A DNA stretch of 64,000 nt, taken from contig NC_092672.1 of assembly GCF_964355755.1 (NCBI RefSeq), positions 29,386,501-29,450,500 on the forward strand, given 5' to 3'. Within the stretch, counting starts at the first letter, position 1. Each line of letters opens with the position of its first letter. Source of the DNA: Antedon mediterranea (lineage: Eukaryota; Echinodermata; Crinoidea; Comatulida; Antedonidae). The translations under genes were made by a program, and so were the position numbers. Below are positions 180 through 62,705 of this stretch, in pieces. The notes below the pieces were generated by a model. That model made no database searches. It was not told where the DNA came from and was given only the letters and a program-made list of their open reading frames with translations.

Positions 180-582
180 CTTTAAACAGGGGATGCTAGT
201 CAAGTCGCCCCATCGCAAAGTCGCCCCATACAAAGTCGCCCCTTACACAGTCGCCCCATCGCAAAGTCGCCCCAAAACAAAGTCGCCCCGACACAGTCGC
301 CCCATCGCAAAGTCGCCCCATCACAAAGTCGCCCCAACGCAAAGTCGCCCCATCGCAAAGTCGCCCCATCACAAAGTCGCCCTATCGCAAAGTCGCGACT
401 TTGTAATGGGGCGACTTTGCGATGGGGCGACTGTGCCGGGGCGACTTTGTTTTGGGGCGACTTTGCGATGGGGCGACTTTGTATTGGGCGACTTTGTATG
501 GGGCGACTTTGCGATGGGGCGACTTGACTGGATCCCTAAACAGGGAGGTATAACATTTAATGTTATACCTCCCTGCTTTAAA
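180..582. mobile_element. 389-bp CAGGG...CCCTG element containing an inverted minisatellite, with 7-bp target duplication
   Basis: The segment 187-575 starts CAGGGGATGC and ends CCTCCCTG. It is bounded on both sides by the identical 7-mer CTTTAAA (180-186 and 576-582). Inside, 201-395 holds 12 tandem units of about 16 bp (AGTCGCCCCATCGCAA and variants). Then 396-530 holds 8 units in the opposite orientation, the centre being AGTCGCGACT (391-400). A separate 35-bp perfect hairpin (541-575, stem CAGGGAGGTATAAC) forms the right end. An open frame of about 150 codons across the array exists only because the repeats lack stop codons; I do not regard it as a gene. Confidence 0.75.
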
Positions 583-1243: not shown

Positions 1244-1293
1244 CATTAAGCATGGAGGAAAAAATAATTATTTTTTTTCCTCCATGCATTAAG
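1244..1293. mobile_element. 36-bp palindromic micro-insertion with 7-bp target duplication
   Basis: The 36-bp element 1251-1286 begins CATGGAGGAAAAAA and ends TTTCCTCCATG. Its stem is at least 14 bp around an AT-rich centre. It is flanked by perfect 7-bp direct repeats CATTAAG (1244-1250 and 1287-1293). The structure is that of a transposon, but far below the size of any MITE class I know. It belongs to the same family as the elements at 1323, 1381, 5259, 8700 and 11,953. Confidence 0.85.
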
Positions 1294-1315
1294 TAAGTGC
1301 TGGTGGGTTAATTGC

Positions 1316-1350
1316 ATTAAATCATGGAGCTTATTTTTCCATGATTAAAT
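1316..1350. mobile_element. 21-bp micro-insertion with 7-bp target duplication
   Basis: The 21-bp element 1323-1343 begins CATGGAG and ends TTCCATG (6-bp perfect stem). It lies between two copies of ATTAAAT (1316-1322 and 1344-1350). It looks like an internally shortened relative of the neighbouring 36-bp element. Confidence 0.75.
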
Positions 1351-1373
1351 CAAACCCCAGATGAAATTCCATA

Positions 1374-1426
1374 GATAGAGCAGGGAGTTGTAAAATAATT
1401 ATTATTTTACAACTCCCTGGATAGAG
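1374..1426. mobile_element. 39-bp perfect palindromic micro-insertion with 7-bp target duplication
   Basis: The 39-bp element 1381-1419 has two perfect 19-bp arms starting CAGGGAGTTGTAAAATAAT around a single central base. Perfect 7-bp direct repeats GATAGAG flank it (1374-1380 and 1420-1426). It is the longest and best-preserved of the simple hairpins. Confidence 0.9.
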
Positions 1427-5099: not shown

Positions 5100-5425
5100 T
5101 TTATACTGGGTAACCTCTTCAGTCAAAGACTGGTCTTCCAGAGGGCCCAGTTGGTGATCAGTGGCTGTGATGTACTTATACACCGGGGTAACCATACTCG
5201 TCTCGAAAGATGTACTAGGTTCTTTAAAGTGCACACGAGCTAGATGTGTACACTGGACCATGGAGATACCTCCATGACTGGACCTACGGTTTATAGTCCT
5301 TATCCGAGAAGACTCGTTCTACCACCAGAACCATGGAGTGAGTGAGCCTTGAACCCCTGCCGATGTTATGGCTACGTAATTACGGTTCCACTGTCTTAAC
5401 CGCTCGGCCACTCACTCACTTTAGT
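5100..5425 (-). mobile_element. tRNA-headed SINE (family 1), copy with micro-insertion
   Basis: Read on the minus strand, the head (5420 downward) carries an RNA polymerase III box A-like GGCCGAGCGGTTAAGAC and a box B-like GGTTCAAGGC. A conserved body and an A/T-rich tail near 5100 follow. Related copies lie at 23,235-23,545 (+), 47,003-47,267 (-) and 47,516-47,776 (-). The body is split by an 18-bp palindromic insertion at 5259-5276. The head resembles a Leu/Ser-type tRNA. Confidence 0.8.
5252..5283. mobile_element. 18-bp palindromic micro-insertion inside a SINE, with 7-bp target duplication
   Basis: CATGGAGATACCTCCATG (5259-5276) lies between two copies of ACTGGAC (5252-5258 and 5277-5283). 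Two other SINE copies have the unoccupied site with one ACTGGAC running straight into CTACGG: 47,125-47,131, and 23,374-23,380 on the opposite strand. The empty sites show that the 18 bp plus one copy of the 7-mer were gained together. Confidence 0.92.
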
Positions 5426-8692: not shown

Positions 8693-8728
8693 GGAAAACC
8701 ATGGAGAAATAATTCTCCATGGGAAAAC
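8693..8728. mobile_element. 22-bp palindromic micro-insertion with 7-bp target duplication
   Basis: The 22-bp element 8700-8721 has arms CATGGAGA/TCTCCATG around AATAAT. It sits between two perfect copies of GGAAAAC (8693-8699 and 8722-8728). Confidence 0.85.
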
Positions 8729-14640: not shown

Positions 14641-14697
14641 CGAACGTATATGAAATAAAATAGAGGGCGATGTATTACAATTTTTGACTCGCGATCA

Positions 14698-14759
14698 TCG
14701 CGAGACGACGACGAAGACGACACACCGAACGAGACAATTGAGAGTTGGGGGCCATTTTG
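14698..14759 (+). promoter_or_regulatory. Probable core promoter of the THAP gene
   Basis: TCGCGAGA (14,698-14,705) matches the TCTCGCGA promoter element, and GGCCATTTTG (14,750-14,759) is the complement of a YY1-type CAAAATGGCC site. Both lie within 85 bp upstream of the start codon. There is no TATA box at the expected place. Both motifs are typical of TATA-less metazoan promoters; function is inferred. Confidence 0.45.
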
Positions 14760-14779
14760 TTTCCTTTTTTGCAGACAAA

Positions 14780-14938
14780 ATGCCGGGATGCAGTGTTGTT
14801 GGATGCAAAACTCGTCGTAAAAAAGGTTTAACAATAAGATTGCATAGATTTCCAGCTAATCCAATTAGAAGAAAACACTGGCAAGAAAATGTTGGGCGGA
14901 AGGGATGGATTCCTAAAAAAAATAGTTTAATTTGTCAG
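14780..14938 (+). CDS. THAP gene exon 1
   Basis: 53 codons, MPGCSVVGCK to LICQ, ending in phase 0 at CAG|GTACAA. The ATG at 14,780 is chosen because Met-Pro-x-Cys is the usual THAP start; the open frame further upstream (from 14,684) has no THAP features. Confidence 0.88.
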
Positions 14939-17900
14939 GTACAAAAATACTCTGCTGAGTTTTGAAGGGAAGAAGGGGGCCCTTCCTGACTGCCTGCCTG
15001 CTGCTGTGTACTCCTGTTGTTGACGTTGTTGAGCCTGACTAGCCGGCTGGCCGCGATCAAAATAGGCTACTAGCTAGCTTAGGCCTAGTCTTAACTTTAT
15101 AGGCCTATGGCTATGCCTACCCAAAGCTAGGCATAGAGCTTGCTTGACTAGCCTGGCCTAGGCCTACTACTACTAGGCCTAGAGACTATCATCAGTATCA
15201 TGCTAGCTAGAAAGAGGGAGGCTAGGAAGTAGGCCTACTACTCTAGTCTAGGCTAGCCTCCTAGCCTACTACTAGATCCTAGGGCCTAGGCTAGGCCTAG
15301 AAGGTAGTTTTTAGTACAGCTTAATAATAATAGGAGGGCGCTATTGACATTGACTTTATTAAAGTTTTCATTTTATCTTGCATTTCTATTAATTAAAAAT
15401 TAGGCCTTCTTTGTTGAACAGAAAGGGCTATAAATTATAATTAATTTCAATAGGCTAATTAATTCCTAAGCGTGATTAAAAATTTCAATATAGTACAGTA
15501 TTAGTAAATTATAAATAGAAAATTTGAATGGTTTGTTTATGTATTTGTCCTAAAGTTAAACGCACACATTCATTTTACAGTATTGTTGTATAAAGTCTAG
15601 TAATTTACTTAACATTTTCTTTACCAGGCACATTTTGATGATGATCAATTTGAGAAAAATCGAACAGATGGAAAACGAAATCTTAAATTCAATGCAGTAC
15701 CAACAATTTTTCCGCATGGTCGACACCTACGAAAGCCATTAAAGAGAACGTACATAGCTCATAATAGTGGACTCAAGTTGAAGATTCCGGAGAGAGTGAC
15801 TGCCGACCATAATTACTGCGCTAAAGATATGCCATCTGAAAGACCTGGAAGAGCTAGGCCCCCTAGGTCACCTCTCAAACTAGGTTTGTACTATGAACAA
15901 AATATTTACAGTAGGAGCTTCATTTTAAGTAATAAAAATAGTCGCTTTTGTAGAGAGAATGAACATGTATGGCAATTGTCTCACAGCCATGGCTTTGTGG
16001 TTTGTTGTTAAATTGCGCCCTCAATGTAAGAAAATAACACTATTTATGTAATAAATTACGTTGTTTTATGCGTACGTAAACTCCAGGGAACGTAAAATCA
16101 GAGTATGTAAAACAAAGGTTCTACTAGCAGATATTGGATTAGTATTATTTTTTTCTTTGATTGAATAACTGCCTTGCCACATAAATATACATGTGACACA
16201 ATATTATATTTTATAACATGCCTGATTGTATTTTTGATTGGTTTTTATTATGCATCATGCGTCGGAAAAGTGATATCTAATGGTGATAATTAATACGCTC
16301 TATAAATGCACGTTCAGCTTTTCGTTGTCTGACCTTGACTGATGCGCTTTCAAAATCAACTTGTTGTGTGCGCCGTCTATAACTGTTGTACTCTGCATCC
16401 AAAGTTGAAGAACTGCCATTTTTAATGGCCTACTGTAGCTCCCAGCCTAGAATTTTTCAATGATTTACAATGTATAAATTGTATAAATTATTTGTTGAAT
16501 ATAGAATAACAACAAATTTCAATTTAATATAGCGCAAAATGCAGGGCGCTCCTAATTATTGAAAAATCAACAGAAAAGAAAAGTCAAACGATTAATGAAG
16601 AAAAATTTGACTGGCAATATTTTCAACTTGGCTCCACCTCATTATTAAAAATAGAGCAGTAAATTTGTCAACTTGTATAATATTCTCATCATCACATTCA
16701 TTATCATTTTGATTCACAATTATTATTTCTTCACTTCTATATATTTTTTTTATTTTAGAATTTGATAAGTCATCTTATCCATGGCTACGGAAATCAACCA
16801 CTAAAACCAAAAATTCCAAAAGATCCAGCTATAAAAGTTCAAATCAAACCAACACTCAAAATCTGGCTCACATGGACAGTCAAAATCTGCGTAATATTGA
16901 CGCGCAACATTCTGTTCACACTGACCAACAGCATTCTGTTCACACTGGCACTCAAAATCTGGCTCATATTGACAATGAGGATCATACCTACAGTGACACT
17001 CAAAATTGTATTCACACAGAAAATCAAAATAGCGAAAATCTGATTGAAACTGACAATAAATGTGGAAAGGAGGAACACTCATTTTCAAGACCGAATTCCG
17101 AATCAAATTCAGAAATGATAGAAGAGCTCAAAACATCTCTTCGTAAATCTGAGAGAAAATGCGAGAAGTTGATAAAAGAAAGAGAAATACTGACAGCTGC
17201 TTTTAAGAAGTTTTTTGCAGAGGACCAATTGAAGGCCCTCGCTACAGGTGGTTTACATGGCATTGAATGGACGAGTGAAACTATTAAGAAAACGATGGAA
17301 TTGAAGTCTATTTGTGGACGAAAAGGTTATCGATATCTTTTGGCTAAAAACTACCTGTTTCCTTCCGAAAGAACTTTACAACGAAGAATAAGACGTAAGT
17401 AATGTTGAATTTGCATATTAGAAATGTGTATGTAAATTAGCATGCCTAATTAACATAAAGTAATATGGTTATCCCAACTTGTATAAGTGTGCATGTTTTA
17501 ACATAAATTCAAAAGTTTTTACCAATAATTTGCATTTTTTATGTACTTGTGCAATGATGACACATTTTTTTAAGATAAGGTAATTTCATTAAAGGAGAAC
17601 TATTTATCAGAAAGGCATATAGTCGACCTTTCCAATAAACAATTTATGCATGGTTGATGGTGCCAATAGCCTCATCCCATAATAATATTAATATCAAATA
17701 ATAATAAAATCTTTATTTTAAAACGGAGGCTCGTTCACAACAAAATGTGTTCTTCCACGATGCCGTATGAAAGAAATAAAACTACAATATCACAATTATC
17801 AAACTGATGAACAAAATGTATTTATCAGTATGTAAAGTAAATATTTGTTTTTCCAGAAGAGAAAAAAGAAAAGGAGGAGAAAGCTATGGATGAAAAAGCA

Positions 17901-21482: not shown

Positions 21483-24400
21483 GTAATGAGGTTACAAATC
21501 CACCACCACCAGACGGAAAGTGCAGACGTCAATGTTTGTTGTGTGTGAGGGTTCGACCGTTGACAGATGGGTCAATGACAGTCACTGTCTAGCCTAAGTA
21601 ACTGTCGATGTAGGCCTAGGCAACTATAATAGCTCTAAATTAATGGATGAAACTCGAAATACAAAGTTATATTAATTATTATAATATTATTTTCAAATAA
21701 AAGTTTGTGAGTGACTGACTGACCGGACCTGACCTCCCACTCTGCTGGGGCCCTCCTGACTTCCTTATTTTTCATTTTATTTAGCATGATCTAGGCTAGT
21801 CTAGCAAGACTATTTAACTAAATAATACTAGGCTAGGTTACAGGTAGGCTGAGCTGTAGTACTATTTCTAGACCTGTAGTTAGCTGTAGTTATATACAAT
21901 AGGTTGGTCTGACAGTGTGCATGGAGGACAGGCTCGCTTAATATGAATGCAATAGGATTCCATGACGATGATTACAGTATACAGACCAAACTAGGAGAAC
22001 TGTTCAATGGTATACAGATGTGGCATGGAGGGAGGTTAAACCTTGAGCTGACCCTACAGAACTAACTACTAGTAGGCTAGGCCTAGATACCAATTACAAT
22101 AAGCCATTCAAATCATTCAATCAGCAGTTCATTGTAGTTTTTTATTCAAACTAACATTTATCTTTCTTTTTTTCACAGATATACGTACAAAAGTTTCTCG
22201 ACTGCGACATATGGAAGTAGGATTACGTGTAGTCCGCGGCCCAAACTGGAAATGGGGCAACCAGGATGACGGGGAGGGCCACATTGGGACTGTCGTGGAG
22301 ATAGGGTGTGCTGGTAGCACTACGTCTCCAGATAAAACTGTTGTGGTACAGTGGGATTGTGGCACACGTACCAACTACCGGACCGGATACCAGGGTTGTT
22401 ACGATTTATTGATTTATGATAACGCACCAGTTGGTGAGTACCAATAATATATATGATAAAAATAATATTTTTATCATTTAACAAATTTGTATTTAGTATA
22501 GGCCTAGTGCTACTGTACTGTACTGTACACAGGGACAATGATTTATTTGACGAAGATGTTCCTGATCTATATTACTAGTAACATTTATTTTTAATTAGTC
22601 AGCAAACGTGTAACTGTACACTTGTTTTTCATTTCACTTAAAACATTTAATTTATTTTTTTTTATTAACATTAAATTTTATAATCATATAGTATACAAAT
22701 TATACAATTAGATACATTCCGATCAATAATACAATACAAATTAATCTAATTTATTGCATTTGAACATTTTTTTTCCTTTGAACAATTAAATCTAAAGATA
22801 AAATTCTTAAATTCTGATTTTTTAAATCATCTTGTTTCCTGTTATACCATTTTGTGTATTATTAGTGGCAGGCTCCATACATTTGAATGTTAATTAAAAT
22901 AAAGTATGACAAAAAAACAATGTACGGTACACTTCATAAGGTGTCATTGACTTTTAACACGAAACATAAAATTAATAAGCATTTAAGTGCTTAAACTTAA
23001 ACTTAATTAAAAGGATATTAATAACTTCCGTGGCTATAACAATGATAATGATAAATTACTAGTCGTCTTCATATCAATCAGTCATTAATTAGAGAGTGTC
23101 CAAAATTAGGTAAAGTGTGTCAAAATATGTATTTAACCTAATTATTTTGCACACATGTTCTCGGTACCAGTACAGTAGGATTACAACAGTTTTGAACTAA
23201 GGCTGTCTTCTTGTGTACAGAAGCACTTTAAACACAAGTGAGTGAGTGGCCGAGCGGTTAAGACAGTGGAACCGTAATCACGTAGCCATAACATCGGCAG
23301 GGGTTCGAGGCTCACTCACTCCATGGTTCTGGTGGTAGAACGAGTCTTCTCGGATAAGGACTATAAACCGTAGGTCCAGTGTACACAACTTGCTCGTGTG
23401 CACTTTAAAGAACCTAGTACATCTTTCGAGACGAGTAGGGGGTTACCCCGGTGTATTAGTACATCACAGCCACTGATCACCAACTGGGCCCTCTGGGAGA
23501 TCAGTCTTTGACTGAAGAGGTCACCCAGTATAAAGATAAAACAAACAAACAAAACAAACAAAGGTCTAGTGTACAGTACAGTACTACAGTACTTAAATAG
23601 CTTGTGTGCATCTTTCGAATAGGGGTTCCCCCGATGTACCTGGTCTAATGTAATCAGCCTCTGTTGTTGTAGACAGACGAACGGGCAGCTCTTGTTTTTT
23701 GTATGACACACAGGGACCCTAGGGGGAAGCAGAAAGTTGTTTTACAGTATGTGGCGTCCACACCTGTGCATAATTCATCCCGGTTTAGACTGTAAGACAT
23801 GGGTCATTCCTATACATTTAGATGGTATTATTAATAAATAACTAGAGAACACTATACTTTATTTGACAACAAAATGTCATGTGCCCATATATGGACATGA
23901 TTATCATGGGCACATTCATTTTTTTTGTCAAACTAGTCATGATACTGATAGTGTAGACAGAGCCTAAAATCAAATACACTATTTATTGCAAATGAATGCT
24001 TGCTTCATAATCTTCTACATTGTGAAACAAACTATAAAATAATGTGTTGTTGTGGTGGAAAATGTAATTACCTGCAGTAACTGCAGTATAATAATTTTGA
24101 CATGATCCCTTAGTAAATATATTTGTATGGATTTTTCACATTTATTTCTCATTTTCAGTGATGATACTAGAATAGCTATCAAATATTGATTATTGTAAAC
24201 AATACCCAGCATTGACAGACAGTTTATCTAGGTCATTGATAGATCCACACCCAATGTGTACAAAATCCTATAATTATCATGACTATTCATTGAATGACTA
24301 TTCTTTCTATAGTGTACCAGCACAAATTATAATAATTTGTCATCTATTTTTAGTGCCTAGCATTGAAAAAATGTCATAAAATTTTTTTGTCAATATTGCT

Positions 24401-57400: not shown

Positions 57401-60400
57401 GCCCAGCCCAAATAAAATGGAATATTACTACCATATTTGGGCACATTACACTATTTTGTCAAACTAATTTGATAGTGTAGACAAAGCTTTAGACAGTGAG
57501 CATCTTACAAGATATTGAACAATTTCCTCCAATTTATTAAGAGTTTCATTTTCTTGCAGATAATTGGTAAAGTAGGTAAAGTATTAAGAATATATTCTGA
57601 TGGTGATTTGCGTGTGTTGATTGATGCTGCTCCATGGACGTTAAACCCAGCGTGCGTTGTACCAGTGTCACAAAATAGAACAGACATTAATAACACAATG
57701 AGACCAGACCGAGAAGAAGAAAAAGGTGATTAAATGAATTACTCTAATATTATTATTAAAGGCAAAACTATCCTATACTTTTAGGCACCAGCAGCGAGTA
57801 ACTCGCCAGTGACAGGATAGATAAATTATTTTATCATGCTTGTATAAACTAAGTCTCATTTGAGGCTTAGGTAGTGGAGTCATAAGATGCAACCCTGCAC
57901 TAGGTCAGGATTAAAAAGCTTGAGATTGGAAGCAAGCACGTTAACCACCAAGCTACAGCTCAACTACATTTGTGAATATGTAATAGAACCTGTTCTTTGA
58001 ACATGATATTCAAGAATACTTATAAAACTAATCTCTTTATTTGCAGGCCACATGCAAGCTCTTATAGACCAGATTGTATCTGTGAACTTAAGCACCGAGA
58101 GTTGTGATAAGCTGGTTAGTGACGCGGCACATGGCAATGCTAGGGCTGTCACTGATATACTTGCTAAACATCCTGAGTGGGTAAGTACTGAGAGTTGCAT
58201 TAAAACACTACCGTATTTATTTGAGGGGGCGTTTATTTTAAGCGCGGCGTTTATATAAATAAATACGGTATTTCATTGAGACAGTTTTGGAATATGTGCT
58301 CCCTGGGACTAATTCAAATGGCAATTCTCAAAATTACATTCTATATTCTACTCTAATTATTTTTCCTTAGGCAGATTCAATTCGAAGGCCCACCTGGCCT
58401 AGGTTTTCCAAAAGGTGTAAAATATTTTTTTAAATAAATAATTCTGTTTAAATTGTAATAATGTAGTTAGTAAGCTACATGTTTCTACCAGAGCTGTTTG
58501 TCTTATTCTGTTATTCCGTATCAACGAAATAGAGGGCTCTCATTTCTAAATTACATTAGCAGTCAGTCAAAACATTTCCATCTTTTCTAGGTTGATGCAA
58601 AAAATACAGGGAAGACAGCGCTGCAGGTTGCTAGCCACCAAGGTCATGTAGAGGTCATCAAGGTTCTTGTGGTTGCTAAGGCTAATTTGGAACTAAAAGA
58701 CCAGGATGGAGATACAGCTCTTCATTATGCAATATTTGGGTATGTGTGTTATGTATGCTTCTCGCAATATTTATTAAATGATTTTGTTTATTATTTTATT
58801 TAACTACGTACACTTTAATTATAATGATTTCCGCAGCAATCAGCCAGAAGTGGCGTCATTTCTACTGTCGAAAGGTGCTAACGTAAACGCTTTGAATAAC
58901 GTTGGTTGCAGTAGTCTACATGTGGCAGTCAATAAAGGTTTTACAAGATGTGTGCGTGCTCTACTCAAACACAAGTGCGACATCAATAAACAGGTATAGT
59001 TGTCTGTAGCCCTCTATCAAAAATGTAATCAAAGAGTGTACGGTATAACCAGGGATGTCACCAGCTTTTTGGAGTGCCGGTCGGCAAATTTCCCGGGGGT
59101 TTGTCGTTATTTTAGCGAAACATAAAGAATTATGAAAATAAATAACAACAAATTGCGTCAGGTCTAGGCCTAACCTTGTACCACCGGGGAGTCGCCGTTA
59201 TTATTCGCGAAAACAAAAAAATGCTTACGAAATGAATAGCAATAGATCGCGTCAGGCTTAGGCCTAGCCTTGTAGACACTACGACCACTAGGCCTAGCCA
59301 AGGCTTAGATAGATGCCCCAAAATCTGAATTCCACAAAAACAGGCGCTTCCTTATTTAGGCCTAATCCCTAATCAAATACTGTAGATAAATTATTAGCCT
59401 AGACCTTACTATTTGTTGCTCGATATAATGTTCGTGTTCTTTTGCGCGAGAGTTTTTTAGCGTTTTCGCGAATTCCGGATTTTTTGTTTCACAACTGTGC
59501 GGCAAGCATGTAGTGCATGGCCGGCAAAAACAGACACGTGTTTATGGGTTAACTGAAGTTCAGCAACCTGAAGTTATCCCAGGGACGTGGAATTATTGTA
59601 CCATGCTCGGCGATCATAAACGAACGAACTTGCCCGGTCTCACTGAAACCATGCGCATGTTTTTTTATTTTTTTTAATAGTTCGTAGAGTACAAAAATGT
59701 AAAACTAGTAACATAATATAATTAAAGCAGGGTGACAAAACATTCAGCAATTAAAAATGATTTTGTTTGGGTCTATGTAGTTGTACATTTTTAATTACTG
59801 CGTACTTGTTTGTATTTTTAATCTGTGCAAAATAAAACGCTTGAATGGTCGCTATGTGAACTTTAAACTTGTACACTGTGCTGTGTAGCACGTTGTTCGC
59901 CATGACTCACAAGCTGTAACAATGAATACCAGGGCAGGGTAGGCCTGGTATTGTGTTACAAATAAAGTAACGTACGTAACCACGGAAACATTTGCTGTAG
60001 TCTTTTGTCTTATCTATATGAGGCTAGCTTGACGATGTGCTAGGTAAAATGTTTTAGTACGAATTTTAGTTAGGCCTAGGCCTAATATAAATATCGTAAT
60101 GATTAATAAATAATAGTGGTGGTCGGCAGCCTGTAAATCCTGGTCGGAAATGTTGAGTGCTGGTCGGGGCTGACCAGCGTGGTGACATCCCTGGTATAAC
60201 CAATTAACATTATAATAAACAATGTTTAGCTTAGTGCCATCCTAATATAATAACAATAATTTAAATTTGATGCTACCGACCTTTCGTAGTGTCTTTCATT
60301 AAATTGTTTTTACTATTGAACTCATGAACATTAATTATTTGTTTTACTATCAAACTTGTGTCTACTGTTTTATAAGCAAATAAATGAATTGTGTCTATAA

Positions 60401-62705
60401 ATTAAATATATAATTTTGCCTTCAGGATGCGTATGGTGATTCTGCCCTCCACGATGCAGTCGCTAAAAATAACAAAGAAATAATTGAAATGTTGATAGAT
60501 GCACCGTCAATAGATTTGACCGTAAAAAACAAGAAAGGATTCAATTCACTTCACCATGCTGCTCTCAAGGGTAATAAGTTGTAAGTACTTAGATCTCGGT
60601 TTTTACAATCTAAAATTATATTTGAATATACCATGACAGCCCCAGTGGTCCACTATTTAGGAATCGAGTCTCAGTTGACATGGTTTTTTCTCAGTCTCGT
60701 AGATTTCCTCATCTTTGATCAATAGTTACTTCTCTGGTTGGTTTAGTGTTTCTCCATGCCTGTCATGAATATACTGTATACATTTATAAAAACTTCTATG
60801 GTATTATGATGAATATTGTTGTATAACTTCGTATTATGCTATGTGACAACAAATCATGTGACAATTAATTGCTGTAGATAACTGTTTAAAGAAGTATTGT
60901 CCCCCAAAACATGAAAAATGAAAATGAATAAAATCAGACTTTAAATAGGCCATATGCCGTAGCTTTAATAATATTAATCACTTCCGTAGAAAGAAATAAG
61001 GAAAAAATAATGTTTTCAATTAAAAAAGACAAATCAAGCGGTTAAATTCAACCAAAAACTTGTTGGCTGGCAGTCAATTTGACAATATTTGCTTTAAATT
61101 ACAACTTTTTTCAGGTAAATTTCACTCTGATTTTTTTGGTCAAATTGCATTAAAATGCCATATTCAACAAAAACACATTTTTTAGGGGTACAATATATCT
61201 TAGGATTTCTAATGACAATTTTTCGTGTTTCTACCAGTGCTGCTGATAAACTGTTAGTGAAGGCTAGGCAGTTGGCAGATGTAAGGAAAGACGATGGCTT
61301 TGCATCGTTGCATCTTGCCGCCCTGAATGGCCATCGAGAAGTTGCGGACATACTAATAACCAAGGTAAAGATTGTTATTGTTATTGCTAAAAGATTATAT
61401 AGTGAAATAGAGAGTCAACTCCAACATTAACGTAGCACGATATAGAGGGACCATGGCCAATCAGATATACAAGTTTAATGTCACCACTTACGTAGTCACA
61501 CACCACTACTCCTATAGTGCTGTGTGTTGAGATATCAATGTGAGTTGTATGATCCTTGTTGTATGCAAAAATGTTAGGCTTTACCAAGAAATTATGTGTG
61601 TTATTGCCAAATTGACCGATACGAATTTCTCTTTTCTTGATTACATAAGGGTCACTGTGAAGTGGACATTAGAAACAACCGGCAACAGACCCCACTCATT
61701 CTGGCGGTCAGTCAGGGACACACAAACATTGTAGAGTTATTAGTAACAAAAGGCGCTGATGTCAACTCAGAAGATGAAGATGGTGACACAGCACTGCATC
61801 TAGCCTTGATGCGACAGGCTCTAAACTCACCAACAGAGCTTGCAACTGCTGCAACTAAGGTGAGGCTAACATCTGGGATTGTCTGTTTAAAAATATTGAG
61901 GGCAGTGTTTTTAAAGAACAGAAATAGAATCAGCTTTAATATACTAATATTATTGTGAAAATATTTTTTTTATTAAAAGTTAATTTTAGTGTTTTTTTAA
62001 AGGCCAGGTGCGGGCACAAAATTTCTATTGATCATACATTCCAATAATCATCGATCTATAGTTTCCCCTATGTTTCATCATTTTTGGGATTTTATTTGTG
62101 TTACACGAGCTTGTTGAAAATAAGCACTTTCTTATCAGTAACAAACAAAATTTGATAGTTCAAATTACACAGTAAAATCTCTATTCTTTTGTACACAAAT
62201 TGTGTAAATAGAGAGGCATTTTAAAAAGCTATGAAAACTAAACGGTGTGGTCAAAAATGTTATCAGATGACTAAATATAGGTAATATAACTTGAATTTTA
62301 CATTTCTGGTATTTTTATTCAACTTCAGATTTTTGTTTTCATGCTATAGCAAAAATTATCCACCGTATATCCACCATCTTTTTTCACCTTCTAGGGAGTC
62401 ACCAGACATGTTATTACATTAGGTTAACTACCTAACTACTGAAAAAAATTCTTCCTGGTTTTTATGGCAGAATATTGCTAAATTTTGTATTTGACCATAT
62501 TAAAGGAAATTCATGTTTTTTCGTCTTGATTTTTTTTACAAATTTTTGATTTATGTACAATTAACCAGATATTATATGTAAAATTCATGCCTGTACCTGA
62601 GCTTTAAAACAACATAAAACAAAACATTCTTTAGATTTTATTAGCATACTAATTACCCAGTGATGATGATTTCAGATTTCATCATCAATGAAACGGCTTG
62701 CGAAG
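21422..62705 (+). CDS. MIB2: Mind bomb 2-like E3 ubiquitin ligase, 5' part of gene (15 exons plus one possible)
   Basis: Fifteen exons join in phase to 750 codons. Order: MIB/HERC2 domain (residues about 32-106), ZZ finger (114-151; Cys114, 117, 129, 132, 138, 141, His147, 151), second MIB/HERC2 (about 180-263), MIB repeats (about 275-430), ankyrin repeats (about 445-750). This is the Mind bomb order. The first domain has the longer [20 protein letters not shown] type, which fits MIB2 better than MIB1. Mind bomb proteins ubiquitinate Notch ligands of the Delta/Jagged type in the signal-sending cell and drive their endocytosis. Human MIB2 is about 1000 residues, so roughly 250 residues with the last ankyrin repeats and RING fingers lie beyond the window. 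No frameshift or stop. Introns range from about 0.35 to 14 kb and are filled with repeats. Confidence 0.9.
21483..22178 (+). other. MIB2 intron 1
   Basis: TAGGC-rich patches (21,780-22,090) and AT-rich sequence. No other feature. Confidence 0.5.
22179..22433 (+). CDS. MIB2: MIB2 exon 2: first MIB/HERC2 domain
   Basis: Contains [36 protein letters not shown] and [12 protein letters not shown], the hallmarks of the substrate-binding MIB/HERC2 fold. Acceptor TTTCACAG, donor G|GTGAGT, one base left over. Confidence 0.95.
23235..23545 (+). mobile_element. tRNA-headed SINE (family 1), full-length-looking copy
   Basis: Head GTGGCCGAGCGGTTAAGAC ... GGGGTTCGAGGC (boxes A and B), then a body with TAGAACGAGTCTTCTCGG and GTACATCTTTCGAGACGAGT, ending GGTCACCCAGTATAAAGAT and an (AAAC)n tail. 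This copy shows the unoccupied target of the micro-insertion found at 5259-5276. A partial, more diverged segment of the same body follows at 23,600-23,690. Confidence 0.85.
23853..23967. mobile_element. MITE of the CTACACTATCAAAC family, left end degraded
   Basis: Interior CCCATATATGGACATGATTA and right end GATAGTGTAGACAGAGCCTA match the family; the left terminus is eroded. Confidence 0.65.
24500..24712. repeat. ~118-bp direct duplication
   Basis: Two copies of a segment with GCTACACTAGCGAAATTATT and TTACATGGATAAACCAACAA ... GAGCAAGATAT (24,506-24,591 and 24,625-24,708). A related fragment occurs at 42,795-42,850. Confidence 0.7.
25017..25430 (+). pseudogene. Possible degraded coding fragment, unidentified
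   Basis: One frame reads from about 25,045 to 25,297 with a single stop near 25,098. It contains [20 protein letters not shown] and, after the stop, [19 protein letters not shown] further open piece, [17 protein letters not shown], lies near 25,345-25,435. GC content is higher than the flanks. It could be an old transposon ORF or a processed fragment. I cannot name the family. Confidence 0.25.
27114..27256. mobile_element. MITE of the CTACACTATCAAAC family, well preserved
   Basis: About 143 bp with ends TAAAGCTCTGTCTACACTAT and its near-complement AGACAGAGCTTA, around an internal CATGTCCATATGGGCACATC. Best representative of the family in the window. Confidence 0.8.
27904..28190. mobile_element. 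MITE of the CTACACTATCAAAC family, split by a palindromic insertion
   Basis: The MITE's left part runs to AACTTTATG at 27,933, then resumes with AACTTTATGTGACAAAA at 28,066. The 132 bp between (27,934-28,065) are a separate insertion. Confidence 0.8.
27925..28074. mobile_element. 132-bp palindrome-rich insertion with 9-bp target duplication
   Basis: 27,934-28,065 is flanked by AACTTTATG (27,925-27,933 and 28,066-28,074). Other MITE copies have this sequence once. The insert consists of CTAGAAAACTCAGAT-type palindromes, its first half (27,949-27,987) being close to the complement of its second half. 9-bp duplications are typical of Mutator-like elements. Confidence 0.75.
29551..30137 (+). mobile_element. 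~0.6-kb TTAA-flanked MITE, copy 1
   Basis: Aligns with 61,999-62,610 in opposite orientation over nearly its whole length, for example ATAGCATGAAAATAAAAA and CAACAAGCTCGTGTAACACA. Ends are AGCTCAGGTACAGGC and the complement of AGGCCAGGTGTGGGC, with TTAA at the right edge and a mutated ATAA at the left. No coding sequence. Confidence 0.75.
32645..32850. repeat. Inverted-repeat element built on ATACCGTATTT
   Basis: TTTCTGCTGCCAAGAAAATACCGT (start shared as CTGCTGCCAAGAAAATACC) at 32,646 is mirrored by CGTATTTTTTGTACCC and CTGCTGCCAATAAAAAACACC near 32,800-32,845. AATACCG/CGGTATT words alternate in between. Probably a small MITE. Confidence 0.5.
32967..33131 (+). pseudogene. Degraded Myb/SANT-like DNA-binding fragment
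   Basis: From ATG 32,967 the frame reads [20 protein letters not shown] and then [20 protein letters not shown] before TGA at 33,093. The same frame continues [11 protein letters not shown] to TAG at 33,129. The spacing of hydrophobics and the QVNSKLKSL...QY end match the trihelix/SANT-like domain of Harbinger-type transposon companion proteins. The first stop falls inside the third helix. I judge it a relic, with moderate certainty. Confidence 0.4.
33157..33361 (+). repeat. ~205-bp inverted repeat, left arm
   Basis: Matches 35,594-35,798 in inverted orientation with only a few differences, for example AGATACAGTGCTTGTTGAAT and TGTATGGATTAAGACTGTCT. The arms are about 2.2 kb apart. The SANT-like relic lies just outside this arm. 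Confidence 0.85.
33596..33685 (+). repeat. 17-bp G-rich minisatellite
   Basis: Five to six units of GTAAGAGGGTGGGGTTA, one with a G substitution, ending GGGTTAGGGTTATTG. Each unit has GGGT and GGGG runs, so two neighbouring units could form a G-quadruplex in the transcribed MIB2 intron. Confidence 0.85.
33875..33990. repeat. Palindrome-rich GGGATCCC/CCCGATCGGG cluster
   Basis: Repeated CCCGATCGGGA, CGGGATCCCG, GGGAATTTTCCC and AGGGATCCC words in about 110 bp. GC-rich amid AT-rich intron sequence. Origin not identified. Confidence 0.6.
35594..35798 (-). repeat. ~205-bp inverted repeat, right arm
   Basis: The inverted partner of 33,157-33,361. It differs, for example, by CGCTCGGCAACAATG against the left arm's AACGTTCCGAAACAATG-like sequence on the same strand. 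Confidence 0.85.
35936..36258. mobile_element. Dispersed ~320-bp element ending GGACAATACCTTTAA
   Basis: Contains GGCAGTCAAGTTAAAGAT, AAATTACAG followed by a T tract and CAGGTAAAT, and GGCATATTCAACATAAAC. It ends GGACAATACCTTTAA. Related segments at 40,290-40,620 and 60,890-61,195 share TATTGTCCCCCAAAA and CATATTCAACAAAAAC-type words. TTAA-ended MITE, family unnamed; weaker relatives at 24,750-24,920, 25,590-25,690 and 34,740-34,970. Confidence 0.5.
36288..36420. mobile_element. MITE of the CTACACTATCAAAC family
   Basis: TTAAGCTCTGTCTACAGTAT at the left and GTAGTGGAGACTGAGTTTT at the right. It lies 86 bp upstream of the ZZ-finger exon, so it sits close to the branch-point region. Confidence 0.7.
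36507..36678 (+). CDS. MIB2: MIB2 exon 3: ZZ-type zinc finger
   Basis: [10 protein letters not shown] ... [17 protein letters not shown] ... KHDLNH supplies the complete C2-C2-C2-H2 set of a ZZ finger. Acceptor CTGCAG, donor CGG|GTTAGT. Phase matches exon 2 and exon 4. Confidence 0.95.
36890..37265. repeat. ~39-bp minisatellite
   Basis: Units such as AAGCCAGTAACACTGATAAG plus GCAGTAATGCTGCTACTGT, about nine copies, the last ones shortened. It begins about 210 bp after the ZZ-finger exon. Confidence 0.85.
38104..38325 (+). mobile_element. tRNA-headed SINE (family 2), copy 1
   Basis: Head GAGCTGTAGCTTAGTGGTTA (box A) and GGGTTCAATCC (box B), then GCCTCAAATGAGACTTAGAT and a 3' AT-rich tail. 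An opposite-orientation copy lies at 57,752-57,966. Different from family 1. Confidence 0.8.
38940..39450. repeat. 15-18-bp minisatellite
   Basis: About 30 units of CCTCCCATATTCATG and CCTCCCAGATTCACAGG. Unit lengths are multiples of three, so three forward frames stay open for over 130 codons. The peptides are repetitive and no gene is implied. Confidence 0.9.
39737..40044. repeat. 154-bp tandem duplication
   Basis: Two adjacent copies (39,737-39,890 and 39,891-40,044), about 93-95% identical by eye, containing ATCAAACCGTACAAGTTGCA and AAAGCCATTATATAAACAGT. Confidence 0.85.
40290..40620. mobile_element. Relative of the TATTGTCCCCCAAAA element
   Basis: Begins TATTGTCCCCCAAAATCATG, then AAAATCAGACTTTGAAGAGG, AAATTACAGTTT and AAAATGGCATTAAAAAAA. 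It matches 60,890-61,195 in order. Ends are not sharply defined. Confidence 0.45.
41817..41930. repeat. 114-bp hairpin (about 50-bp arms)
   Basis: TGGAATGGTACAAATAATTT at the left is mirrored to 41,930. The arms pair with a few mismatches to a loop of about 12 bp near 41,868-41,880. No target duplication. It could be a solo MITE or a miRNA-precursor-like hairpin within the MIB2 transcript. Confidence 0.7.
44333..44439 (+). CDS. MIB2: MIB2 exon 4: start of second MIB/HERC2 domain
   Basis: Encodes [12 protein letters not shown] and [18 protein letters not shown], the conserved opening of the second MIB/HERC2 unit. Acceptor TTTTTATAG, donor GATG|GTAAGT. Confidence 0.93.
44440..44885 (+). other. 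MIB2 intron 4
   Basis: Short intron, no repeats or other features recognised. Confidence 0.7.
44886..45080 (+). CDS. MIB2: MIB2 exon 5: second MIB/HERC2 domain
   Basis: [39 protein letters not shown] and [10 protein letters not shown] are family signatures. One base carries over to exon 6. Confidence 0.95.
47003..47267 (-). mobile_element. tRNA-headed SINE (family 1), subfamily B, copy 1
   Basis: Head near 47,265 (minus strand) as in family 1. The 3' part contains CCAACTACGGCGCCATTACG and GTCCACGACAGTGTGTGTGA instead of the ending seen at 23,235. It retains the unoccupied ACTGGAC site. Confidence 0.8.
47516..47776 (-). mobile_element. tRNA-headed SINE (family 1), subfamily B, copy 2
   Basis: Same 3' part as the copy at 47,003, about 510 bp away in the same orientation. 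An internal deletion near 47,640 removes the segment containing the ACTGGAC site. Confidence 0.8.
48393..48540. mobile_element. MITE of the CTACACTATCAAAC family
   Basis: TTAAGCTCTGTCTACATTAT at the left, a duplicated CACTACCATATTTGGGCA inside, right end TTTTTTTGTCAAACTA truncated. Confidence 0.7.
48610..48765 (-). mobile_element. tRNA-like SINE (family 3) or tRNA pseudogene
   Basis: On the minus strand 48,696-48,622 reads GCAAGCTCGGTGGTCTAAAG, then TGAACGCC and GGGTTTGAGTCCC, giving boxes A and B. It does not fold as a clean cloverleaf by eye. Its neighbour GGGTTCGAATCTAACCC (minus, near 48,715) gives a second box B-like word. Confidence 0.5.
49929..50557. mobile_element. ~620-bp TTAA-flanked DNA element
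   Basis: TTAAAGACCCCTTCCCTGC at the left pairs with GTAGGGAATGGGGCTTTAA at the right. The interior is GC-richer, with TAGGCC and CGATCGATCG words. No coding sequence. Consistent with a piggyBac- or Kolobok-type non-autonomous element. Confidence 0.65.
51530..51625. repeat. C-rich minisatellite, about 30-bp unit
   Basis: Three units of CCTCCCTGCTACCCAGGCC with spacers, on a strand with strong C bias. Confidence 0.7.
53903..53937. repeat. 35-bp near-palindrome resembling the micro-insertions
   Basis: Begins CAGAGAGATGTAAAAT and ends ATTTTATATCTCCCTG (two arm mismatches), similar in size and ends to the CAGGGAG hairpins. No flanking 7-bp duplication remains. Could be an old member. Confidence 0.45.
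54832..54977 (+). CDS. MIB2: MIB2 exon 6: first MIB repeat (first part)
   Basis: [20 protein letters not shown] followed by [12 protein letters not shown], the MIB-repeat signature. Ends in phase 0 at GCAGAG|GTAAAA. Confidence 0.94.
55015..55915. repeat. 24-bp minisatellite, over 30 units
   Basis: Units of CCATCTTAGATTTCATTATG plus GCTG or ACCG, regular from 55,385 to 55,860 and degenerate outside. Because 24 is a multiple of three, both strands have stop-free frames of 87-96 codons. Located in MIB2 intron 6, 40 bp after exon 6. Confidence 0.9.
56137..56247 (+). CDS. MIB2: MIB2 exon 7: first MIB repeat (second part)
   Basis: [20 protein letters not shown] and [12 protein letters not shown]. 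Phase 0 at both ends. Acceptor TTTTCCCAG, donor AAG|GTATGT. Confidence 0.94.
56772..56876 (+). CDS. MIB2: MIB2 exon 8: second MIB repeat (first part)
   Basis: [20 protein letters not shown] and [11 protein letters not shown]-like end parallel exon 6. Phase 0 both ends, donor GTA|GTAAGT. Confidence 0.93.
56926..57492. mobile_element. MITE of the CTACACTATCAAAC family, interrupted by a LINE fragment
   Basis: Left part CTTGTCTACACTATCAAACT ... GTGATGTGCCCAAACATG to about 56,987. The right part resumes near 57,428 with CTACCATATTTGGGCACATT and ends GATAGTGTAGACAAAGCTTT. The 440 bp between are retrotransposon-derived. Confidence 0.8.
56988..57427 (-). mobile_element. Non-LTR retrotransposon (LINE) 3' end with RT C-terminus
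   Basis: On the minus strand an open frame (from 57,444, the first residues lying in the MITE, to 57,130) contains [10 protein letters not shown] and [20 protein letters not shown]. That is the usual extreme C-terminus of LINE reverse-transcriptase polyproteins. It is followed by a short 3' UTR and a (CTGTAT)n tail at about 57,025-56,995. Strongly 5'-truncated; no catalytic motif is present. Confidence 0.75.
57560..57725 (+). CDS. MIB2: MIB2 exon 9: second MIB repeat (second part) and linker
   Basis: [20 protein letters not shown] and [11 protein letters not shown], then a charged linker ending EEEKG. One base carried over. Confidence 0.94.
57752..57966 (-). mobile_element. tRNA-headed SINE (family 2), copy 2
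   Basis: Minus-strand head GAGCTGTAGCTTGGTGGTTA near 57,960, then GCCTCAAATGAGACTTAG. It lies between exons 9 and 10. Confidence 0.8.
58047..58180 (+). CDS. MIB2: MIB2 exon 10: start of ankyrin region
   Basis: [20 protein letters not shown] and [19 protein letters not shown], an ankyrin-like helix pair. Donor TGG|GTAAGT. Confidence 0.92.
58209..58273. repeat. 65-bp fold-back
   Basis: ACCGTATTTATTTGAGGGGG is mirrored by ATAAATAAATACGGTATT around a GCGTTTATTTTAAGCGC centre, 28 bp after exon 10. Probably a small MITE. Confidence 0.55.
58591..58739 (+). CDS. MIB2: MIB2 exon 11: ankyrin repeats
   Basis: [20 protein letters not shown] and [14 protein letters not shown], two ankyrin consensus starts. 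Two bases carried over. Confidence 0.95.
58837..58993 (+). CDS. MIB2: MIB2 exon 12: ankyrin repeats
   Basis: [20 protein letters not shown] and [20 protein letters not shown]. Phase 0 end at CAG|GTATAG. Confidence 0.95.
58994..60425 (+). other. MIB2 intron 12, mostly one DNA transposon
   Basis: About 80% of this intron is the 1144-bp element at 59,050-60,193; the flanks are plain AT-rich intron. Confidence 0.7.
59043..60200. mobile_element. 1144-bp DNA transposon, CAGGGATG ends, 7-bp target duplication
   Basis: The element 59,050-60,193 has a 14-bp terminal inverted repeat CAGGGATGTCACCA, with looser matching GGTCGG/CCGACC words further in. GTATAAC lies on both sides (59,043-59,049 and 60,194-60,200). 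No long coding frame, so it is non-autonomous. CAGGG ends recall hAT elements, but those usually duplicate 8 bp; P and Dada elements are reported to make 7-bp duplications. Superfamily left open. Confidence 0.8.
60426..60580 (+). CDS. MIB2: MIB2 exon 13: ankyrin repeats
   Basis: [20 protein letters not shown] and [16 protein letters not shown]. Two bases carried over, donor TT|GTAAGT. Confidence 0.95.
60890..61195. mobile_element. TATTGTCCCCCAAAA element in MIB2 intron 13
   Basis: Starts AGTATTGTCCCCCAAAACAT and ends AACACATTTTTTAGGGGTAC. Interior as in 40,290-40,620. The right end lies about 43 bp before exon 14. Confidence 0.55.
61238..61364 (+). CDS. MIB2: MIB2 exon 14: ankyrin repeats
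   Basis: [20 protein letters not shown] then [18 protein letters not shown]. Phase 0 end. Confidence 0.95.
61650..61859 (+). CDS. MIB2: MIB2 exon 15: ankyrin repeats
   Basis: [36 protein letters not shown] and [17 protein letters not shown]. Acceptor ACATAAG is weak in pyrimidines, but the frame and family match are clear. Ends AAG|GTGAGG in phase 0. Confidence 0.93.
61999..62610 (-). mobile_element. ~0.6-kb TTAA-flanked MITE, copy 2
   Basis: Opposite-orientation partner of 29,551-30,137. Ends TTAA plus AGGCCAGGTGCGGGC and GCCTGTACCTGAGCT plus TTAA. TTAA is intact on both sides, so this is the better preserved copy. Confidence 0.78.
62676..62705 (+). CDS. MIB2: Possible MIB2 exon 16 (30-nt microexon)
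   Basis: GATGATTTCAG|ATTTCATCATC ... GCGAAG|GTAGGT encodes [10 protein letters not shown] in phase 0, continuing from exon 15. Family members have a poorly conserved linker at this point, so sequence similarity cannot decide it. Splice sites are good. Confidence 0.35.

Follow-up and report, generated by a model that had tools for sequence, protein, structure and literature searches.

Why does the genome of the crinoid Antedon mediterranea carry short palindromes that each stand between two perfect copies of a 7-bp sequence, a different one every time? The question is raised by three such palindromes near the start of the 64,000-nucleotide stretch of DNA analysed here (the window), which belongs to a 354-Mb genome of 18 contigs. 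A sequence-only reading had described the three with their perfect, mutually different 7-bp flanks, and its coordinates and letters proved exact. It had also counted four further sites in the window. Three more short ones were found, so that the total is six and not seven, all of them within the first 9 kb. The features are given below by window position; none is assigned a strand, and "scar" anticipates the explanation that is argued for in this text.

180..186, no strand, target duplication CTTTAAA, left copy (scar 541-575), moved away from it by the insertion at 190-536
190..536, no strand, later insertion, with inverted ends around a tandem and inverted AGTCGCCCC array (boundaries by eye)
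541..575, no strand, probable excision scar of 35 bp, end family CAGGGAGGTATAACAT
576..582, no strand, target duplication CTTTAAA, right copy (scar 541-575)
1244..1250, no strand, target duplication CATTAAG, left copy of scar 1 (letters checked)
1251..1286, no strand, probable excision scar 1, 36 bp, end family CATGGAGGAAAAAATA, arms identical at locus L016
1287..1293, no strand, target duplication CATTAAG, right copy of scar 1
1316..1322, no strand, target duplication ATTAAAT, left copy (scar 1323-1343)
1323..1343, no strand, probable excision scar of 21 bp, asymmetric, the left remnant longer and the right remnant short
1344..1350, no strand, target duplication ATTAAAT, right copy (scar 1323-1343)
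1374..1380, no strand, target duplication GATAGAG, left copy (scar 1381-1419)
1381..1419, no strand, probable excision scar of 39 bp (19 + 1 + 19), end family CAGGGAGTTGTAAAATAA
1420..1426, no strand, target duplication GATAGAG, right copy (scar 1381-1419)
5252..5283, no strand, probable excision scar of 18 bp (5259-5276) between two copies of ACTGGAC, within a dispersed repeat
8693..8728, no strand, probable excision scar of 22 bp (8700-8721) between two copies of GGAAAAC

The palindromes are very probably the excision scars of P-superfamily transposons, mended by error-prone end joining. A cut-and-paste element of this superfamily would insert and duplicate a 7-bp target (roughly GTNNNAC). 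Its transposase would later excise it by long staggered cuts, one strand being cut at the boundary and the other some 17-19 nt further in, within the inverted end, and each chromosome end would keep the duplicated target together with a 3' tail, single-stranded, that consists of roughly the first 17-19 nt of the end. Since both tails have the same sequence and would be unable to pair along their length, they would be rejoined by end joining instead: at 1-3 nt of microhomology, as blunt ends once filled in, or with the arms serving as template for inserted bases, and one side would often be trimmed. The product would be a duplication, an end remnant, a junction, an inverted end remnant and the second duplication. 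This is the structure that a long staggered excision predicts and that is observed at these sites. The staggered cut itself, a polymerase theta-like repair pathway and germline timing are what we infer to lie behind it. The palindromes had earlier been taken for transposons of 21-39 bp, which is most likely wrong, as each looks like the remnant after a larger element left. An unusual process had also been thought necessary; the ordinary transposition of a tiny element is indeed not the answer, and templated insertion fits the repair step only.

The insertion at 5259-5276 is real. The repeat around it has four paralogous copies, two within the window, one in L030 and one in L044, that run on uninterrupted with a single ACTGGAC, and relative to these empty sites the scar copy carries 18 + 7 extra bases. 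In a fifth aligned repeat copy, w47589, the sequence of the site is absent. The earlier view that transposon ends and genuine 7-bp target duplications are present is right.

One of the six sites is split. TAAACAG(GG) at 183-191 and 537-545 flanks the insertion at 190-536, which parts the scar at 541-575 from its left CTTTAAA (the pair came from a computed scan, the reading was made by eye). By eye, a stretch whose translation resembles that of this insertion of inverted AGTCGCCCC-type repeats ends the P transposase frame of L168.

Ends, targets and transposases of the P superfamily

The terminal inverted repeats of the P superfamily measure 13 bp in zebrafish and 27-31 bp in insects, and are longer in Galileo. 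The two cuts of the Drosophila P transposase are described as offset: one strand is cut at the end of the element, its partner strand 17 nt within the repeat of 31 bp (PMC7776569). Its excision junctions are described as carrying an 8-bp duplication, at most 17 nt from either end of the element, and microhomology, blunt joins or templated insertions, and polymerase theta has roles in the repair (PMC2895639). The sites in A. mediterranea are like these junctions in their flanking target duplication, their end remnants and their microhomology, blunt or templated joins, a match in kind (PMC2895639, PMC7776569). The Drosophila junctions differ in that they come from laboratory-induced excision and have 8-bp duplications (PMC2895639, PMC7776569), whereas the scars described here were read from a genome assembly, belong to several end families and have duplications of 7 bp. 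Excision by zebrafish THAP9 is reported to leave flanking deletions larger than those in Drosophila (PMC10983969), and deletions of that kind may bear on the places here where one side is lost.

A 7-bp target is known from Galileo, a member of the P superfamily with the target GTATTAC or GTANTAC (PMC4168063). The sites described here share with it the 7-bp target duplication and a palindromic GT...AC consensus; their target preference is weaker than GTANTAC (PMC4168063). In the CATGGAGAAATAAGTT family the majority letters of the duplication are, by position, G, T, T/A, T/A, A, A and C. Galileo has very long inverted repeats, in contrast to the intact element found here, which has 32-bp ends and measures 878-880 bp, and the available part of the Galileo source reports no genomic excision scars (PMC4168063). 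The P-MITEs of Anopheles are short non-autonomous P relatives with inverted ends and 8-bp duplications (PMC1562414). The intact 880-bp element is comparable to them, and palindromic scars are not reported in the available part of that source (PMC1562414).

The genome also holds P-type transposase genes. The RNase H domain of the P transposase has 35 matches in it and none in any of 14 control genomes; among the 35, three have the same score and an open frame of 794 aa, and two others agree in a second score and in 617 aa. The frame at L168 matches Pfam PF21787 and the P-element HTH domain, PF12017, as well as the solved P transposase of PDB 6p5a at 1.2e-15. L168 and L169, the 3.4-kb stretches that hold the best two transposase loci, showed no ends. 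On contig C9, a CATGGAGAAATAAGTTAGG end at C9:21463595-21463613(-) has transposase matches 2.8 kb inward of it, at C9:21460387-21460792(-), a pairing known by positions only, whose end may be a scar; the chance of any such transposase-end pair, estimated after the fact, is about 0.03. The P-type transposases of this genome presumably move these very ends.

Two further observations concern genes in the window. At 14654-17402, exons with a THAP domain (PF05485; the match of the second falls below the cut-off) precede an exon weakly like the P transposase (PDB 6p5a, E 7e-4); a P transposase may here have given rise to a host gene. At 22103-22444 and 61131-61427, a MIB/HERC2 domain with a weak ankyrin match suggests what are perhaps exons of a mind-bomb-type gene.

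Could the scars have been left by a superfamily other than P? CA/TG-type ends are found in other transposon superfamilies too, and no single element with both scar-family ends and a P transposase was met among the loci read, which would agree with such an origin. Most other cut-and-paste families, however, leave few nucleotides of their ends, whereas the places described here have inverted terminal repeats and a 7-bp duplication and would have kept about 17 nt of the end after excision. The length of end retained and the 7-bp targets, which resemble GTNNNAC, speak for the P superfamily, as do the P transposases of the genome, one of them beside a matching end (by positions only). A source outside the P superfamily is improbable on these grounds.

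Junctions and retained ends

Three end families were followed: (a) CATGGAGAAATAAGTT, (b) CAGGGAGTTGTA and (c) CATGGAGGTATAAAAT. Across them the outer end is common and the centre varies, with microhomology, blunt joins and insertions that match the arms in part. The first, CATGGAGAAATAAGTT, occurs 171 + 163 times in the genome (control 0). The sample drawn from it consists of 81 places: 59 among the first 100 listed, 20 picked for the 19-mer CATGGAGAAATAAGTTAGG, and L002 and L011; L065 and L105 were left out as second readings of L056 and L066. A second arm and a duplication were recognisable in 55 of the 81 places and not in the other 26. Some of the places without a recognised second arm, here and in the third family, show, by eye, that one end or the duplication is lost, and part of them is unexplained. 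L114 has no second arm and L091 almost none, both with 7/7 duplications.

After four of the 55 scars were dropped for repeated flanks, 51 were analysed. Their duplications agree at 7/7 in 39, at 6/7 in 10 and at 5/7 in two, the 7/7 share being conditional on a second-arm rule that tolerated up to two mismatches in the duplication. Scar lengths range from 23 to 71 bp and are most frequently 27 (nine scars), 30 (seven) and 32 bp (six). Seven of the nine 27-bp scars join at TTA, and four of the six 32-bp scars at TA. Over all 51 joins, 13 have an overlap of 1-3 nt, 15 have no overlap and 23 have extra bases, although in L092, L119 and perhaps L053 the script took a mutated arm for an insertion. 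With L092 and L119 omitted for this reason, the insertions of 12 scars add up to 119 bases, 86 of which lie in 4-mers that also occur in the end. Shuffling matched this score in 4 of 2000 trials, and three inserts of the 12 have no 4-mer in common with the end. Some junction insertions look as if copied from the arms. These places have the marks of end-joining footprints, with the duplication retained and a varied junction that shows microhomology or insertion.

A similar diversity was seen for the second family. The pattern CAGGGAGTTGTA N0-30 TACAACTCCCTG matches 121 palindromes in the genome against 0 for the control, and 25 different sequences occur among 37 listed places (50 listed of the 121, minus 13 array copies, an array of 14 being kept once; the flanks were mostly not read).

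How much of the end is kept can be told from the third family, which occurs 127 + 159 times (controls 0 and 1). Two CATGGAGGTATAAAAT pairs, 878 and 880 bp apart, are intact elements (L126 and L127), 97% identical, with 32-bp inverted ends, one L126 end being three bases shorter (29). The 878-bp L126 has a 7/7 duplication (GTTCAAG/GTTCAAG) and L127 an imperfect one (GTCCAAC/GTCCCAA). A further 41 CATGGAGGTATAAAAT places were read, from which six with repeated flanks were removed. In the remaining 35 arms, with a search floor of 16 nt, the retained end is 16-19 nt long in 34 and the full 32 in one (L152), and none has a length of 20-31. A second arm and a duplication were recognisable in 19 of the 35, 17 of these at 7/7; the other 16 include the intact L152. 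Among the places read, scars outnumber intact copies. In L166, the first 380 bp or so of the 880-bp element are followed by other DNA and then, further on, by a 36-bp piece of the element.

The retained length differs by family: 16-17 nt dominates in one, and up to 19 nt, perhaps 20, is kept in another. Beyond the 19-mer CATGGAGAAATAAGTTAGG, all 20 read places part from one another in the first few bases and have no continuation in common. The next letters vary, with A first in 16 of the 20, and the stop is thus at 19 or 20, a value to be read with the selection of this set for 19 and with the limit of 19 that the CATGGAGAAATAAGTT script placed on retained length.

Two other pairs of readings were considered as possible elements. 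L066/L105 was rejected as an intact element: 19 nt of the end run straight into the duplication, of which the last 5 nt are there, and on into the flank, and it is therefore read as a scar minus its second arm. For L056/L065, no second end was found within 4 kb by the end-search rule used. In the window, a 1144-bp element at 59050-60193 has CAGGGATGTCACCA inverted ends between 7-bp repeats GTATAAC. It has no match in the rest of the DNA compared (the window and the fetched loci), and thus no link between it and the scars was obtained. A 136-bp candidate element at 60632-60767, with CATGACAG ends and 7-bp repeats AATATAC, is possibly a short non-autonomous relative; a 48-bp stretch of it resembles L038.

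Are the palindromes themselves mobile, as minimal transposons or ultra-short MITEs that insert in units of 20-40 bp? Their ends and 7-bp duplications are as expected of a transposon, and some identical palindromes stand at different sites, such as the recurrent 27-bp TTA join and a 35-bp junction with the centre AGG/CCT. The latter recurs at differing duplications in L002 and L011, with near-identical forms in L006 and L018; it fits a blunt joining of 19 + 16 nt and could be read as limited re-mobilisation. Copies with identical arms, however, differ mostly in the centre, and this diversity is observed at unrelated sites. Mutated copies of one master would look otherwise, and a MITE-like master with its centre included was not found: the same arms go with many centres. 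The 34 of 35 arms that break off after 16-19 nt, in a family whose end is known to measure 32 bp, and the 7/7 duplications of L114 and L091, also speak against mobile units of this size. To be mobile, a Drosophila P element must have no less than 138 and 216 bp at its ends, and a 35-bp unit would be without these inner sequences (PMC1562414). Minimal mobile elements were rejected on the diversity of the junctions and the stop inside the 32-bp end, and it is highly improbable that they account for the palindromes.

Flanking identity and recurrence in the genome

Among palindromes of 14-100 bp with CAKGGRR-type ends, the window has five cases of full flanking identity at k = 7 and none at k = 5, 6 or 8, in a test where a true 7-bp duplication scores at k = 7 only. 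The five are the three palindromes described earlier together with 5259-5276 and 8700-8721. With the ends unconstrained (7-nt perfect arms, length 14-60 bp), the window cases number 11, 5, 2, 4, 1, 0 and 1 for k = 4 to 10. All four cases at k = 7 have CAKGGAG ends, which are absent in the listed cases at k = 6 and 8. At maximal-arm boundaries, identity at k = 7 was found for 2 of 492 window palindromes versus 1 of 12,014 in 40 Markov-1 simulated windows, where 20 occurred at k = 5, six at k = 6 and none at k = 8.

In the genome, the exact 35-bp form has 72 places versus 1 for the reversed pattern. Flanking identity in the 23 places read is 7/7 in 16, 6/7 in three and lower in four. Together with the simulated windows, these numbers confirm that palindromes of the CAKGGAG type with flanking 7-mers are no coincidence, as had been claimed. 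Twenty random 10-kb stretches of contigs C1-C7 contain two more short 7/7 sites (L034:7689-7704 and L038:6811-6830), which gives a very loose estimate of ten per Mb; a 38-bp CATGATC-ended candidate with 6/7 flanks was seen in the same stretches, in L032.

The scar CATGGAGCTATAAAATTAG... is listed six times in G000:C3 at 21.2-24.2 Mb (L019, L020), and as two read copies share flanks, some scar counts are not independent events. In L167 (G000:C3:297650-298650), a 38-bp scar and its 7-bp duplication ATTGGCT form a local tandem array. It has 14 exact copies, and its commonest spacing, in seven of 13, is 45 bp (38 + 7). This is a scar seeding a satellite.

That hairpins or replication slippage produced the palindromes from AT-rich DNA, with flanking repeats by chance, is vanishingly improbable: some arms are simple AT-rich sequence, but the fixed CAKGGAG ends with 7-bp repeats, the empty site, the control matches (72 versus 1, 121 versus 0) and the single simulated case stand against it, and chance palindromes were likewise rejected on the specificity for k = 7, the control patterns and the simulated windows.

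A probable standing population of excision scars

Most DNA transposon scars consist of a few bases and are hard to distinguish from ordinary mutation. P-type elements are cut deep inside their ends, and their excision can thus keep a tag of 16-19 nt, the target and the repair junction. P excision scars themselves are already known, from the laboratory, and a paper on DNA-transposon excision in rice genome comparisons has the phrase "excision footprint(s)" twice (PMC4423477). Narrow word searches of the open-access literature found no paper, by title or the start of its abstract, on standing genome-wide P-type excision scars, and within these searches no precedent was met for a standing genomic population of scars with a readable cut position, repair junctions and 7-bp targets.

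How far could such scars shape a genome? Germline excision of P-type elements might be so efficient, and restoration from the sister or homologue so rare, that the lasting trace of the elements is their scars, which would form a second layer of repeats. This is an unlikely proposal. If it is true, the second layer is exemplified by the tandem array whose 45-bp unit is a scar plus one duplication, and excision could be a regular, transposase-driven clearance.

The scars also carry a warning for annotation, as very short palindromic "MITEs" may be scars. Many such tags, in turn, are a readable record of where elements stood, where they were cut and how the breaks were repaired over evolutionary time, and this record is obtained without any experiment.
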